From a bacterium HR17 (GTDB lineage Bacteria; Armatimonadota; Fervidibacteria; Fervidibacterales; Fervidibacteraceae), in contig BEHT01000007.1 in the NCBI GenBank assembly GCA_002898575.1, forward strand, positions 1 through 64,000: 64,000 nt of DNA, in the 5' to 3' direction. The notes below the pieces were generated by a model. The model was not told the DNA's origin and ran no database searches. It saw only the letters and a list, made by a program, of their open reading frames with translations. Below are positions 44,196 through 50,002 of the stretch, piece by piece (the first letter of the stretch is position 1; each line of letters begins with the position of its first letter). The translations under genes were made by a program, and so were the position numbers.

Positions 44196-45824
44196 TCATT
44201 GGGGTGTCGGGCGAGGTCTTAGCCCTCTGCACCCAGGGGGCACGCCACTGGTGGGTTCGTTGTCCAACGCTGCCAACCGCTCAGCCGCAAACTGCCATGC
44301 CTTCGCAGTGCCCTGCGGTCCGCTCATCGTCAGCGCCAAAAATTGTTCGCCCAACGCCACGACATCACGCAACGCCAACCCGCGCCGTTCCAACGCCGCC
44401 AAAAACGCCATGAACGCACGCCACGCCGCCAGTGTCTTGCGACGCGTTCGCCCGTAACCTCGCACCATTTCGCCGCTGCGGGCGATGAGGAACGCCAGGT
44501 CGTAATCGCGTTCCAGCGCCTGCCGCACCGCTTCCAACCACGCGGCGATGGCTGCCCACTCCCGCCGGAACCGTCGCGAATAGGGGCGCAACGGTTTGAG
44601 CCATTGCAACACCTTGAGCAGCAAGTAACCTGTCAGCGAACTCGTCTCCACGCGCAATTGTAACGCAGGTCGTCTCAACTCCTCGTCTTGGGAGGGTAAC
44701 GGGGGCAATTCCGAGTCTTCCTTGTCCCATGCCCCTTGCCCTTCATCCCTCGTCCCGCCAAACGGCAAAAGCCCCGTCAACTCATCCCAATCGGGGCTGA
44801 AAAAGTCCACGACGCGGTAAACGGTCTCGTCGCCGATGCGGTGTTCGCAGCGCAGCCGTTCAAATCGCTGCCGTTGTGTCTTCAGTTGTGCCACGCGCAC
44901 CGCATCTTCGTAAGCCATGCGCAACGCCAAGATGCGCGCCGCTTCCTTCGTCACCAGAAAATTGGCTTCCCATTTGCGGTCACGCTCGTAAACCGCTTGA
45001 ATGCCTTCAAGGTAGCGGGCGAAATAGCGGGCATCTTGGTAGTGGCACAGCCAACGGGCAGCGTGCCACAGCACCGCCGCCAACTCATCGTCAACGCCGA
45101 GCCTTTCCATTGTCCGCTGCACTTCTGCTGGCAATTGCGGTTCAGGGAGCGTCGCCCATTCCTGAACGGCGGCATCGTCAACCGCTCGCAGTTGCGGCAG
45201 CCAATCGCGGTAGCGCAACCCAAACTCAAACGCCCGCACATTGAACGCAACGGCGACACCGTAACGCTCGACGGCGTGCCGAAACGCTTCGGGCGGAAAC
45301 GGCAACACTCCGGATGCTGCCAACGCCCCAAACAAAATCGCATTCGCCGCCCGCTCCGATAACCCCGCCAGCGCTGCCGCTTGCACCGCATCAAACGCGA
45401 TGCAGCGTCGCGCTTGCTGCTGCAAAAATGGCAGCGCTTGTTCCGCTGTCATGAAACTCCCTTTAAGCGGCAACTTTTCCTCAGTCGTTAAGACCCGATG
45501 GGTGGAACCGACGATGGCACCATCGTCAGCCAGATAACCGTCCCGCACTGCTCGCAGCAACTCCAACAACTCTAAGCCAACTAACACCTGCACCCTGCCT
45601 TTCTCAGGAAAAGGGGAAAAGAGCATCGTCTCTGCTGCGTCGGCGAAAAACTCAAGGTAGTAAACTGTCGCCCCCTCGCGCTGCGACAAGCCGGGCAAAC
45701 CGACGCCGACGGGATAGTAGCCCCCCTCACGGGCGGCATCAAAGAGCCACTGCGAGAACAACTGTCCCCCTTGCCCGCCCACGGCTGCGACCAAAACGGT
45801 GATGGGTGTCTGCACCTTTGCCAT
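44196..45824 (-). CDS. iorB: indolepyruvate ferredoxin oxidoreductase, beta subunit with DUF6537-like C-terminus
   Basis: A 542-residue protein. The N-terminal part is the gamma/beta-type domain of 2-oxoacid:acceptor oxidoreductases (VLVAAVGGQGGQLFSQWLFDAA, GVGLPGLSQREGATVYYLEF, LVGLELLELLRAV). The long C-terminal region matches DUF6537-containing IorB proteins that pair with the TGDHSC-type IorA. Together they would oxidatively decarboxylate aryl pyruvates to aryl-acyl-CoA. A linker at residues about 352-375 is encoded by degenerate heptamer repeats. ATG 45824 is chosen over 45881 because GAAGGG lies just before it. Its partner iorA starts 4.1 kb upstream on the same strand. Confidence 0.82.
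   Translation of the reverse strand: MAKVQTPITVLVAAVGGQGGQLFSQWLFDAAREGGYYPVGVGLPGLSQREGATVYYLEFFADAAETMLFSPFPEKGRVQVLVGLELLELLRAVRDGYLADDGAIVGSTHRVLTTEEKLPLKGSFMTAEQALPFLQQQARRCIAFDAVQAAALAGLSERAANAILFGALAASGVLPFPPEAFRHAVERYGVAVAFNVRAFEFGLRYRDWLPQLRAVDDAAVQEWATLPEPQLPAEVQRTMERLGVDDELAAVLWHAARWLCHYQDARYFARYLEGIQAVYERDRKWEANFLVTKEAARILALRMAYEDAVRVAQLKTQRQRFERLRCEHRIGDETVYRVVDFFSPDWDELTGLLPFGGTRDEGQGAWDKEDSELPPLPSQDEELRRPALQLRVETSSLTGYLLLKVLQWLKPLRPYSRRFRREWAAIAAWLEAVRQALERDYDLAFLIARSGEMVRGYGRTRRKTLAAWRAFMAFLAALERRGLALRDVVALGEQFLALTMSGPQGTAKAWQFAAERLAALDNEPTSGVPPGCRGLRPRPTPQ
44703..44757 (-). repeat. degenerate tandem heptamers inside iorB
   Basis: On the minus (coding) strand the heptamers run without a gap in phase with the consensus GACNNGG (for example GACGAGG, GGCAAGG, GGCATGG, GACAAGG). 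They encode the extra linker rich in Gly, Asp, Gln and Trp near residue 360 of IorB. Confidence 0.7.
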
Positions 45825-45896
45825 CTTCCCTTCACCCGCCGTAATTATGGGTTCCGCTCCGTAGCGAAGAAGAAGCGGCAAAAATGTGTCCTAAGA

Positions 45897-46463: not shown

Positions 46464-46949
46464 TTAATTGTCCTGCTCCTCCACCTTCACGCCTTCCTTC
46501 TGCAGCGCTGCCACCAAATCGCCGTAGCGGATGGCTGTCTTTTCGTCCCAAGTCACCAGCACGCCGCCCTTTTCTGCCTTCACCGTTTTAACTCCCTTGA
46601 CACCTTGCAGCGCCTTTGCCGCTTTCTCCCTGTCCTTTTCAGCGATGGGCACAAACAGCGTTAGCCGAAAAGTGTGATGGCGACGGCGCACCTCCATCGG
46701 CAGCGCTGACAGAGGTGTTTTGGTTTCGTCCAACACGACAACGGCTCGCTTGTCCTTGAACGAGACGCCGGCTTTCTCTACGCCTTTTATGCCCTTCAGG
46801 GTTGCCTCCAACCCTGTGGCGCACCCATTTCAGGTCATCCCGTCTACGATGAAAGTGACCTTCACCCGTTGCGATTTTTGAGGCGTTTGCGCCGCTAATG
46901 TTGCGACCGTCAACGCAGCAGCGCTTAATATCCACAATGCACAGCGCAT
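46464..46949 (-). CDS. exported heavy-metal-associated (HMA) protein; candidate selenoprotein with in-frame TGA
   Basis: Reading from ATG 46949 (AACGGAGGTG upstream) gives a 161-residue protein with a signal peptide (MRCALWILSAAALTVATLAAQ). An HMA domain opens VKVTFIVDGMT-x-NGCATGLEATLKG. Codon x (46830-46832) is TGA and sits exactly where the first Cys of the metal-binding CxxC motif belongs, so the product would be UNGC if TGA encodes selenocysteine. The frame then stays open for 121 codons with good HMA sequence (GIKGVEKAGVSFKDKRAVVVLDE). A second ferredoxin-like repeat without CxxC follows (ALQGVKGVKTVKAEKGGVLV). A hairpin fitting a bacterial SECIS begins 13 nt after the TGA. Alternatives are a nonsense mutation or a sequencing error. 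The protein resembles MerP or copper-chaperone domains. Confidence 0.75.
46797..46816 (-). promoter_or_regulatory. candidate bacterial SECIS hairpin in the HMA gene
   Basis: A perfect 8-bp stem CAGGGTTG/CAACCCTG with loop GAGG. It starts 13 nt after the in-frame TGA, and the apical loop lies 21 nt after it and begins with G. Bacterial SECIS elements are small stem-loops immediately downstream of UGA with a G at the start of the apical loop. Confidence 0.6.
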
Positions 46950-47056
46950 TGCCCTTTCACCTCCGTTGTTCATCAAAAATTGCCCGCTCTGCCATTGAAG
47001 CGACGGCTTATGTCAGTTCGCCAACACTCAACATCGGGGGCTAAAACTGCGAGCCT

Positions 47057-47755: not shown

Positions 47756-49930
47756 TCACACGCCGAGCAACCATCGCCGCAAACGGAATTGCACTCGCTC
47801 CCACCACGACGGGTTGTGCACCCATTCCACACGATAGAAAGATGGGCACAGTTTGGCGGCGTGGGCGACCGAACCGCACAACCCGCAGGCGACGCAAGTT
47901 TGCTCCGCTTGAACAACCATGTCTCGCTTGAGCGGGTTGGGCGACGGGCGCACCGAGAGGGACGGGCAATTGTTGTAGTGCAAACAACTGTGATCGCCGA
48001 CGCACACGAGGGGGTCAACGCCGAAACGCGCTTCCACCACCCGCTTTCTCCCTTCTCGCCGGCGTTCCCGCTCTTTGCGCTCCCTGCGGTTGCGTTCCAA
48101 CATGCATTCGCCCCGCACGATCAAAAAGCGCGGACCGAGTTCGGAAAGTTGCCATGCCTCTTCCAGCAACCGCACGACTTCACCGACTTCGTAAGGGTTG
48201 ACGACTTTGACCCATCGTGCGCCCATGCCTTTTAGCGTCGCTTCAATGTCCAAGTTGCCCGCTCGCTCGCCGAGTTTGGTGCTGGGGTTAGGTTGATGCC
48301 CCGTCATCGCCGTCCAAAAGTTCTCCAAGACGAGCACGACGCAATCTTGCTTGTGATAGAGGGCGTTGCTGATGCTCGTCGTTAACGCTTGCGCCCAAAA
48401 AGTGCCGTCACCGACGATGTAGATCGTCCGCTCCCGCGACAAAAAGGAACTTGCCAAACTGGACGCAAGGCAAGTGCCCATGCCCGTCACAGGTGCCACC
48501 AAATCCCGCAGGTAATAGATGCCCATGATGTAGCAGCCGATGTCCAGCACGATTTCCAATTTCACTTCAGGGTGCAGGTCGCGGAAAATTTTCAGCGCGG
48601 TCAACACTGCCGGGCGTTCAGGGCAACCCGTGCAAAAGTTAGGAAAACGCGGGACGACAGGCAACAACTCGTCAGTCGGGAGGGGAGACGGGGGACGAGG
48701 GACGGAAACGGCGGCGCTGGAACGCCCCAGAAATTTCGCCAACCCGTCCGTCACGATGTCCGTCGTCAGTTCGCCCGTTGTCGGCAGAAATGCGCTGCGG
48801 ACGATGCGCCCCCTCCAACCGAATTGCTGGGCGATAGCGCGAATTTCTCGCTCCAACAGCGCGGGCTCGCCCTCTTCTACCACGAGCACTTCGTCTTTGC
48901 CGTCCAAAAATTCCGCCAGATCGTCTTCCACTAACGGGAACAACGCATGCAACGAAAGCAGCGGAACGCCGAAGGAAAAGGATGAAGGATGGGGCGCGAG
49001 AGACAAGGGAGGTGGGGAAGTTGGCAGAGTTGTGCTGTCGCTTCGCGAGTGGGCAGCGACGAACTCGCGGCGATGAACTTGTGCTTCACCCAAACGCATC
49101 AGCGCCCGCAAAGCGACATTGAACAGCAACCCATGCACAATGACGCCTTTGCGCCCACCGTCGTCGTAGCGCTCGTTGATGCCGTGTTGACGGATAAAGG
49201 TTTTGGCGAGCGGGACGCGTTCGTGCCACTTTTCGCGTTCCTGCTGTTGCGTGAACGGCGGGATGGGAAAGCGGTCGGGCGTATGGTGCAACACTGCCAA
49301 AGGGTGATGCAAGTTGAATGCGGGTGGTTGATTCTCCTGCACTTGCAGCCAACCCTTCATGTTGCCGACGCGGGTGCGCACCAAAAAGAAGACTGGCATG
49401 CGGCAAGTTTCTGAAAGGTCAAAGGCAATACGGGTCAAACGGGCAACATGGTTCAAATCAGCTTTGGGGTCTAAGACGGGCGCGCCGAAGTTGTAGCCGT
49501 AAGGCAGCGTCTTTTGAGCGACCAAGGTGCTGTTGGCGCCGTAGTCCTCGCCGACGAAAATGACCGTCCCACCCTGCACACCCGACGAACACACATGCGC
49601 CAAGGCATCGGCAGCGACATTCGTCCCGACGACTTTCCACGCGACCGCACCTCGCACGGGTGCGTTGACCGAAAAGCGCAGCATCGCTGCCGCTGCCGAT
49701 TCGTTGACATTGTTGGCGACGAAAATGCCCATCGGTTTCAGGACCCGCTCTTCCGCATCAAGGAACGCATCGGTCAAGTTGGAAACGGGGGCACCAGGGT
49801 AGCCGCCGACATATGCCACACCGCTTTCCAGCAACGCCTTCAAAATCGCCAGACACCCATCCGCCCAAATGCACCCGTCCTGCATCCGCAACTGCTCAAT
49901 CTCGTGGGTGGGATAAGTCCGTCCCATCAT
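47756..49930 (-). CDS. iorA: indolepyruvate ferredoxin oxidoreductase, alpha subunit
   Basis: A 724-residue ThDP enzyme. The N-terminal pyrimidine-binding domain has GVAYVGGYPGAPVSNLTDAF and NNVNESAAAAMLRFSVNA. The C-terminal ThDP/Mg domain has VLDIGCYIMGIYYLRDLVAP and YIVGDGTFWAQALTTSISNAL, with VLVLENFWTAMTGHQPNPST. The iron-sulfur tail carries CVGDHSCLHYNNCPSL and CVACGLCGSVAHAAKLCPSF, the pattern of the TGDHSC subfamily whose partners have DUF6537. Two linkers (residues about 300-320 and 405-420), rich in Pro, Ser and Leu, are encoded by degenerate heptamers. ATG 49930 has GGAGG 5 nt before it; ATG 49927 follows immediately and is equally possible. Confidence 0.87.
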   Translation of the reverse strand: MMGRTYPTHEIEQLRMQDGCIWADGCLAILKALLESGVAYVGGYPGAPVSNLTDAFLDAEERVLKPMGIFVANNVNESAAAAMLRFSVNAPVRGAVAWKVVGTNVAADALAHVCSSGVQGGTVIFVGEDYGANSTLVAQKTLPYGYNFGAPVLDPKADLNHVARLTRIAFDLSETCRMPVFFLVRTRVGNMKGWLQVQENQPPAFNLHHPLAVLHHTPDRFPIPPFTQQQEREKWHERVPLAKTFIRQHGINERYDDGGRKGVIVHGLLFNVALRALMRLGEAQVHRREFVAAHSRSDSTTLPTSPPPLSLAPHPSSFSFGVPLLSLHALFPLVEDDLAEFLDGKDEVLVVEEGEPALLEREIRAIAQQFGWRGRIVRSAFLPTTGELTTDIVTDGLAKFLGRSSAAVSVPRPPSPLPTDELLPVVPRFPNFCTGCPERPAVLTALKIFRDLHPEVKLEIVLDIGCYIMGIYYLRDLVAPVTGMGTCLASSLASSFLSRERTIYIVGDGTFWAQALTTSISNALYHKQDCVVLVLENFWTAMTGHQPNPSTKLGERAGNLDIEATLKGMGARWVKVVNPYEVGEVVRLLEEAWQLSELGPRFLIVRGECMLERNRRERKERERRREGRKRVVEARFGVDPLVCVGDHSCLHYNNCPSLSVRPSPNPLKRDMVVQAEQTCVACGLCGSVAHAAKLCPSFYRVEWVHNPSWWERVQFRLRRWLLGV
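48675..48710 (+). repeat. degenerate heptamers inside iorA (site 1)
   Basis: On the plus strand (antisense to iorA), three to four heptamers such as GACGGGG and GACGAGG run in tandem. Translated from the coding strand they give a Pro/Ser-rich linker (VPRPPSPLPTDE) between the conserved blocks near residue 410. Confidence 0.65.
48976..49025 (+). repeat. degenerate heptamers inside iorA (site 2)
   Basis: About seven imperfect heptamers (for example GATGAAG, GACAAGG, GAGGTGG) read on the plus strand, antisense to iorA. They encode a linker of Thr, Pro, Ser and Leu (TSPPPLSLAPHPSSFSFG) near residue 310. Confidence 0.6.
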
Positions 49931-49965
49931 CGCCACCTCCAACGGCAGGTTGGCGAGCCGCTGAA

Positions 49966-50002
49966 AGCATAGCGACCTTGCCCGCTTTCGGCAAGGTGTC
50001 AA
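49966..50002 (-). promoter_or_regulatory. candidate promoter with internal palindrome upstream of iorA
   Basis: A TTGACA box (49997-50002) and a TATGCT box (49966-49971) flank a perfect 7-bp palindrome CCTTGCC/GGCAAGG (49976-49996). The 25-bp spacing is too long for a standard sigma-70 promoter, so a regulator that bends DNA, or a chance match, should be considered. Confidence 0.3.

Follow-up and report, generated by a model that had tools for sequence, protein, structure and literature searches.

A predicted selenoprotein with two tandem HMA folds, read through an in-frame TGA at its metal-binding site, in an Armatimonadota genome

Does an in-frame TGA in a short reverse-strand gene of bacterium HR17 terminate translation, or does it encode selenocysteine (Sec) in a metal-binding motif? 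The question arises in the window, that is, the whole 64,000-nt stretch of contig BEHT01000007.1 analysed here, where the frame starting at ATG 46949 meets a single TGA at codon 40 of 161 and then stays open for 121 codons up to a TAA (Table 1). This TGA occupies the first Cys of the GMTCxxC motif of an HMA domain (GMT-Sec-NGC), and an ordinary ORF listing yields just a 115-aa fragment of the 161-residue frame. The GGAGG ahead of the ATG would be a good ribosome-binding site for this start. The bare pattern (a single TGA in a UxxC or CxxU context followed by at least 80 open codons) is not rare on its own: it occurs six times in the window, and the other five frames look spurious. Far beyond chance, by contrast, is what comes together here: the TGA falls on the conserved Cys of a significantly scoring domain, ten distant homologues repeat it, and few synonymous recodings equal the hairpin downstream.

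Table 1 Features of the predicted selenoprotein gene and its TGA-bearing homologues
Feature	Position	Strand	Motif, description or basis
Tandem-HMA selenoprotein gene (predicted)	46464..46949	-	161 aa with Sec40, TAA stop; TGA=U translation
GGAGG, Shine-Dalgarno-like	46960..46964	-	10 nt upstream of ATG, from sequence
Signal peptide, about residues 1-20 (MRCALWILSAAALTVATLAA)	46890..46949	-	Read from sequence; AlphaFold model of low quality over residues 1-20
HMA domain 1, residues 28-90	46680..46868	-	GMT-Sec-NGC; Pfam PF00403, AlphaFold, Foldseek
In-frame UGA, residue 40, predicted Sec	46830..46832	-	Matching metal-binding Cys codon is TGA in ten further genes of the phylum
Predicted bacterial SECIS	46797..46816	-	8-bp stem, loop GAGG (46808-46805); folding and synonymous-recoding test
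HMA-like domain 2, residues 95-157	46479..46667	-	No CxxC; AlphaFold secondary structure
G061 homologue (same family as window genome, another genus)			RUGGC
G101 and G103 homologues			GMTUGGC
G070 homologue	L039:1081-1596		GMTUGGU, two Sec in one HMA motif
G066 homologue	L134:8511-8975		GFTUPSU, two Sec in one HMA motif
G068 homologues, three copies			UGCC, UGGC, UGGC
G004 homologues, two copies			QUEGC; other HUPVGC in second domain

With the TGA read as Cys, the Pfam HMA model PF00403 matches residues 32-84 at 59.5 bits, above its gathering cut-off of 24.8. The AlphaFold model of the whole protein has a mean pLDDT of 88.5, with values above 95 over most of both domains; the first domain is modelled as a ferredoxin-like beta-alpha-beta-beta-alpha-beta fold (pLDDT above 95), and the second, a ferredoxin-like beta-alpha-beta-beta-alpha arrangement, is likewise folded with confidence. 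The best single-domain PDB matches found by Foldseek are MerP and the HMA domains of copper ATPases, for most of which the rmsd is 1.2-1.6 Å (1.2 Å between the first domain and MerP 1osd). Bacillus subtilis CopA is the best two-domain match, and two-domain structures of CopA and ATP7B align with the protein, but the domain pair superposes poorly. As modelled, two HMA folds follow one another in a secreted protein, the first carrying Sec-xx-Cys and the second lacking CxxC.

Searches of 291 genomes of the same phylum, first by protein and next by a profile built from 16 homologues, brought up ten further genes, in seven genomes, whose counterpart of the metal-binding Cys is TGA (Table 1). The TGA copies included in alignment A2 are about 22-30% identical to the window protein; in this alignment the column of residue 40 is an invariant Cys when TGA is read as Cys. 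The in-frame UGA of the window gene is thus aligned with the Cys of the remaining homologues, so that the site holds either Cys or the same TGA, the one exception being a G004 copy with the motif moved to its second domain. In that copy (L137:2464-2916), GMHUPVGC lies in the second HMA domain and the first is devoid of CxxC, the reverse of the window protein. The nearest Cys homologue, from G005, shares 36% identity and is homologous over residues 5-157, that is, over its full length. The first-pass annotation of the locus, from the letters of the DNA, had correctly described a signal peptide and an HMA frame interrupted by one TGA and followed by 121 codons of good domain sequence. A scan of genome contigs returned only distant relatives, mainly matching the first HMA domain. 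The phylogenetic tree requires at least four changes between Sec and Cys, two of them forced by well-supported branches, many deep branches being weak and the exact number uncertain. The Cys copy of G136 falls inside a well-supported Sec clade, and in the G136 genome we found no selA, no tRNA-Sec and no selB above the cut-off.

Recurrence of TGA at one codon of intact, divergent proteins leaves a nonsense mutation with no explanatory role. A single base change would turn TGC or TGT into TGA, and broken genes usually show one in-frame stop, as would be expected of a pseudogene, a nonsense mutation or a sequencing error affecting an ordinary Cys codon. Against this explanation stand the same TGA in ten distant homologues, which refutes it in practice, a protein conserved downstream of the TGA to its end and a hairpin specific to the TGA copies, and we regard it as highly improbable.

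The hairpin, CAGGGTTG-GAGG-CAACCCTG, begins 13 nt after the TGA, as the first-pass annotation had noted, and spans nucleotides 13-33; the 64 nt containing it fold with a z of -3.7. Published rules for bacterial SECIS elements (bSECIS) specify a loop of 3-9 nt with G within its first two positions, located 16-37 nt after the UGA (PMC13188914); a stem of 4-16 bp and an energy of at most -7.5 kcal/mol complete the bSECIS criteria applied here. The window hairpin lies within all these ranges (loop GAGG, 8 bp, 21 nt after the UGA, -12.6 kcal/mol). When the strongest uninterrupted hairpin was compared with that of recodings preserving the protein and local codon usage, the latter taken from limited sequence, only 0.035% of synonymous recodings of the window gene were equal or better (p 0.00035). 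Among the homologues, the hairpin of G061 has 8 bp, a loop GUC and a distance of 20 nt, and that of one G004 copy (G004a) 7 bp, a loop GGA and the same 20 nt. The G068 copies have loops GUCU or GUCC, which resemble the loop of Escherichia coli fdhF. Taken one by one, the hairpins of several homologues (G070, G066, G068c) fall short of significance, but the eleven TGA copies together give a Fisher p of 3e-8, to be read with the homologues being related and not fully independent; with one TGA copy per genome p is 7e-7, and 8e-5 without the window gene. By contrast, no enrichment appears among thirteen Cys copies in the same test (p 0.41), from which the hairpin is absent as a group, and hairpin strength differs between TGA and Cys copies (Mann-Whitney p 2e-5). 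All these values come from the published-range version of the test, an earlier version with narrower ranges having given p 1e-11. Two other measures were set aside. In the first, the plain folding energy over the 45 nt that follow the TGA was compared with that of synonymous recodings. The signal was strong for the window gene (z -4.7), but across the whole set it was weak, and Cys copies also gave a mildly positive one; the hairpin test with published geometry therefore took its place. The second, a loose scan for any hairpin, was dropped because about 53-58% of TGAs that were random or served as stops satisfied it too.

Everything that Sec insertion requires (a tRNA-Sec with anticodon UCA, SelA, SelB and SelD), for which the first-pass annotation had proposed to look, is encoded in the window genome G000 (3.15 Mb, 75 contigs). 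The tRNA-Sec (78 bits) is encoded on the window's contig, 11 kb beyond the window end, and the profile scores of selB, selA and selD are 409, 581 and 385 bits, respectively. Both tRNA-Sec and selB are present in all eight TGA-bearing genomes, and selA in seven of them as against 141 of 291 across the phylum; the eighth, G004, is in 1060 contigs. TGA is also the stop codon of six of the seven neighbouring genes checked, and the code is therefore not reassigned. Reassignment of TGA, or its readthrough as an amino acid other than Sec, has nothing in its favour besides the open frame and is opposed by these stops and by the full Sec pathway in the genome; we consider it even less probable than a broken gene. 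Taken together, distant relatives with the same codon, a hairpin after each and Sec machinery in the genomes argue that the apparent stop codon almost certainly encodes Sec at a metal-binding site, and thus favour the reading of the first-pass annotation that the protein would be made with UNGC.

Further observations concern the Sec-related genes of G000. Its SelD (L018:1453-2427, contig C2) is itself a predicted selenoprotein, with TGA at the canonical catalytic Sec position (KGGUACKIGP). Second matches to tRNA-Sec in three genomes were rejected, none having a UCA anticodon: a Sec-like tRNA-Cys in G000 (C22), a tRNA-Leu in G070 (C13) and a tRNA-Ser in G066 (C11). The first of these (L002:1591-1501, reverse strand; G000:C22:52122-52032), whose best Rfam match is tRNA-Sec at 55.9 bits, has the anticodon GCA (Cys), a U discriminator and no encoded CCA, and is similar to the selC* tRNA-Cys described for other phyla (PMC7609411). 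About 40 nt downstream of it lies an Rdx (SelW-like) gene (L002:1460-1197, reverse strand) with the motif YCVPC, in which TGC stands at the position where SelW proteins can carry Sec. On another contig (G000:C14:9055-9405), about 2 kb from selA, an HMA domain is found within an 808-aa frame of P-type-ATPase size.

What the Sec would do is suggested by fold, motif and the gene neighbours of Cys homologues. In the HMA family (MerP, CopZ, CopA, ATP7B), a single soft metal ion is bound by the CxxC pair. Sec is a softer and more acidic ligand than Cys, so that Sec would be expected to give tighter binding of Hg(II) or Cu(I). The G005 Cys homologue shares its gene cluster with zf_CopZ, with a gene combining MerT and HMA and with a regulator of ArsR type. 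CusB-like genes adjoin the Cys homologues of both G172 and G164; a CusA-like efflux gene is also present beside the former, and a P-type ATPase beside the latter. Such MerT/CopZ/ArsR or CusAB/CopA-type surroundings point to metal binding, and a secreted metal-binding or delivery role appears likely for the family; 'metal chaperone' is accordingly a provisional description of the window protein, drawn from its fold and from the neighbours of Cys homologues. The main rival to metal binding accepts Sec insertion and assigns the protein a redox role, UxxC serving as a secreted thiol/selenol-disulphide catalyst or peroxide scavenger. Most of the selenoproteins whose function is known are oxidoreductases, and UxxC is typical of redox sites (PMC13188914); metal-efflux genes are absent beside several TGA copies. 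Conversely, the fold is that of HMA rather than thioredoxin-like, the Cys homologues are located in metal-handling gene clusters, and the UxxU of two copies is no less compatible with a metal site. A redox role is therefore unlikely in our view, if well ahead of the explanations without Sec, and metal binding remains the preferred reading.

The TGA copies themselves are mostly solitary or stand beside a DUF1326 gene (G066, G068). Immediately downstream of the Sec or Cys tandem-HMA gene, a DUF1326 gene is present in G066 (L134:9046-9747), G068 (L085:6846-7499) and G136 (L138:4018-4788), and the G066 and G068 proteins have EACSCNxFCMCYF in common; the DUF1326 protein is a possible functional partner of the tandem-HMA protein in these three genomes. 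No DUF1326 gene was found in the window genome, where the short ORF 46367-46185, checked as a candidate, is not DUF1326. No metal genes are among the neighbours of the window gene. Those neighbours are O-methyltransferase and POR/TPP-enzyme (indolepyruvate-oxidoreductase-like) genes: POR/DUF6537 and TPP-enzyme genes (44196-45881 and 47756-50002, both reverse strand) resemble the two subunits of indolepyruvate ferredoxin oxidoreductase and are separated by the O-methyltransferase gene and the selenoprotein gene.

Selenoproteins with HMA domains have precedents. A survey of selenoproteins in the GOS metagenome lists a Sec MerP and an E1-E2 ATPase (PMC2398784), a 2026 review includes the UxxU protein NF041115 as a 'putative mercuric reductase' (PMC13188914), and a further NCBIfam entry, NF045683, covers a MerT/CopZ fusion-like heavy metal transport selenoprotein. 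The expectation of the first-pass annotation that a Sec-containing metal chaperone would be unusual therefore holds, but such a protein is not unprecedented. NF041115 (UxxU_metal_bind), likewise an HMA-type selenoprotein with Sec for Cys of CxxC, is the best NCBIfam match of the window protein, which nevertheless scores 55.9 bits (residues 28-83) against an equivalog cut-off of 95; the model has 74 positions, a single domain and UxxU, whereas the window protein is predicted to be exported and has two domains and UxxC. NF045683 (MerT_CopZ_Se) is a known selenoprotein family whose CopZ-like part is related to the window HMA domain, but the window protein reaches only 41.5 bits against a cut-off of 375 and is without the MerT membrane part. 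MerP (TIGR02052) is an exported HMA protein with GMTCxxC, matched in fold through 1osd and with a Sec form in the GOS table (PMC2398784), yet the window protein scores 52.8 bits against 92.55, has an extra second HMA-like domain and is not accompanied by mer genes, although the G005 Cys homologue does adjoin MerT. The cation-transporting E1-E2 ATPase selenoprotein (ABB15669) is likewise listed as a selenoprotein, with UxxC and a role in metal transport, but it is a membrane P-type ATPase, and the window protein is short, soluble and, as predicted, exported. By sequence comparison, the window protein thus resembles known Sec-HMA proteins in its first domain, falls outside them by the cut-offs of their models and has a new architecture. 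We found no earlier report of a tandem secreted Sec-HMA family in the openly accessible papers searched.

We consider it probable that the window gene encodes a secreted two-domain HMA protein in which the first metal-binding Cys is Sec, the hairpin is its SECIS element and the role is soft-metal binding. Under this model, SelB carrying Sec-tRNA-Sec would bind the hairpin, and the UGA would be read as Sec rather than as a stop. In the exported protein, Sec40 and Cys43 of the first HMA fold would bind a soft metal, most likely Cu(I) or Hg(II), which would be buffered or passed to an efflux system, and the second fold, lacking CxxC, would probably serve in structure or docking. Without selenium, translation would terminate after 39 residues, so that selenium would have to be available for the protein to be made. 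Evenly balanced, in our judgement, is the broader proposition that these genes form an undescribed, widespread secreted tandem-HMA family in one phylum, in which Sec (or two, as UxxU) acts as a soft-metal ligand and not as a redox catalyst, and in which Sec and Cys were exchanged several times in step with the keeping or losing of the Sec machinery. Sec as a metal ligand rather than a redox centre has been predicted, and according to the 2026 review its function has not been worked out (PMC13188914). The family adds genes that ordinary annotation would truncate or call pseudogenes. Because one small soluble fold occurs in it naturally with UxxC, with UxxU and with CxxC, it would allow direct measurement of how selenium alters the affinity for metals and the choice among them.
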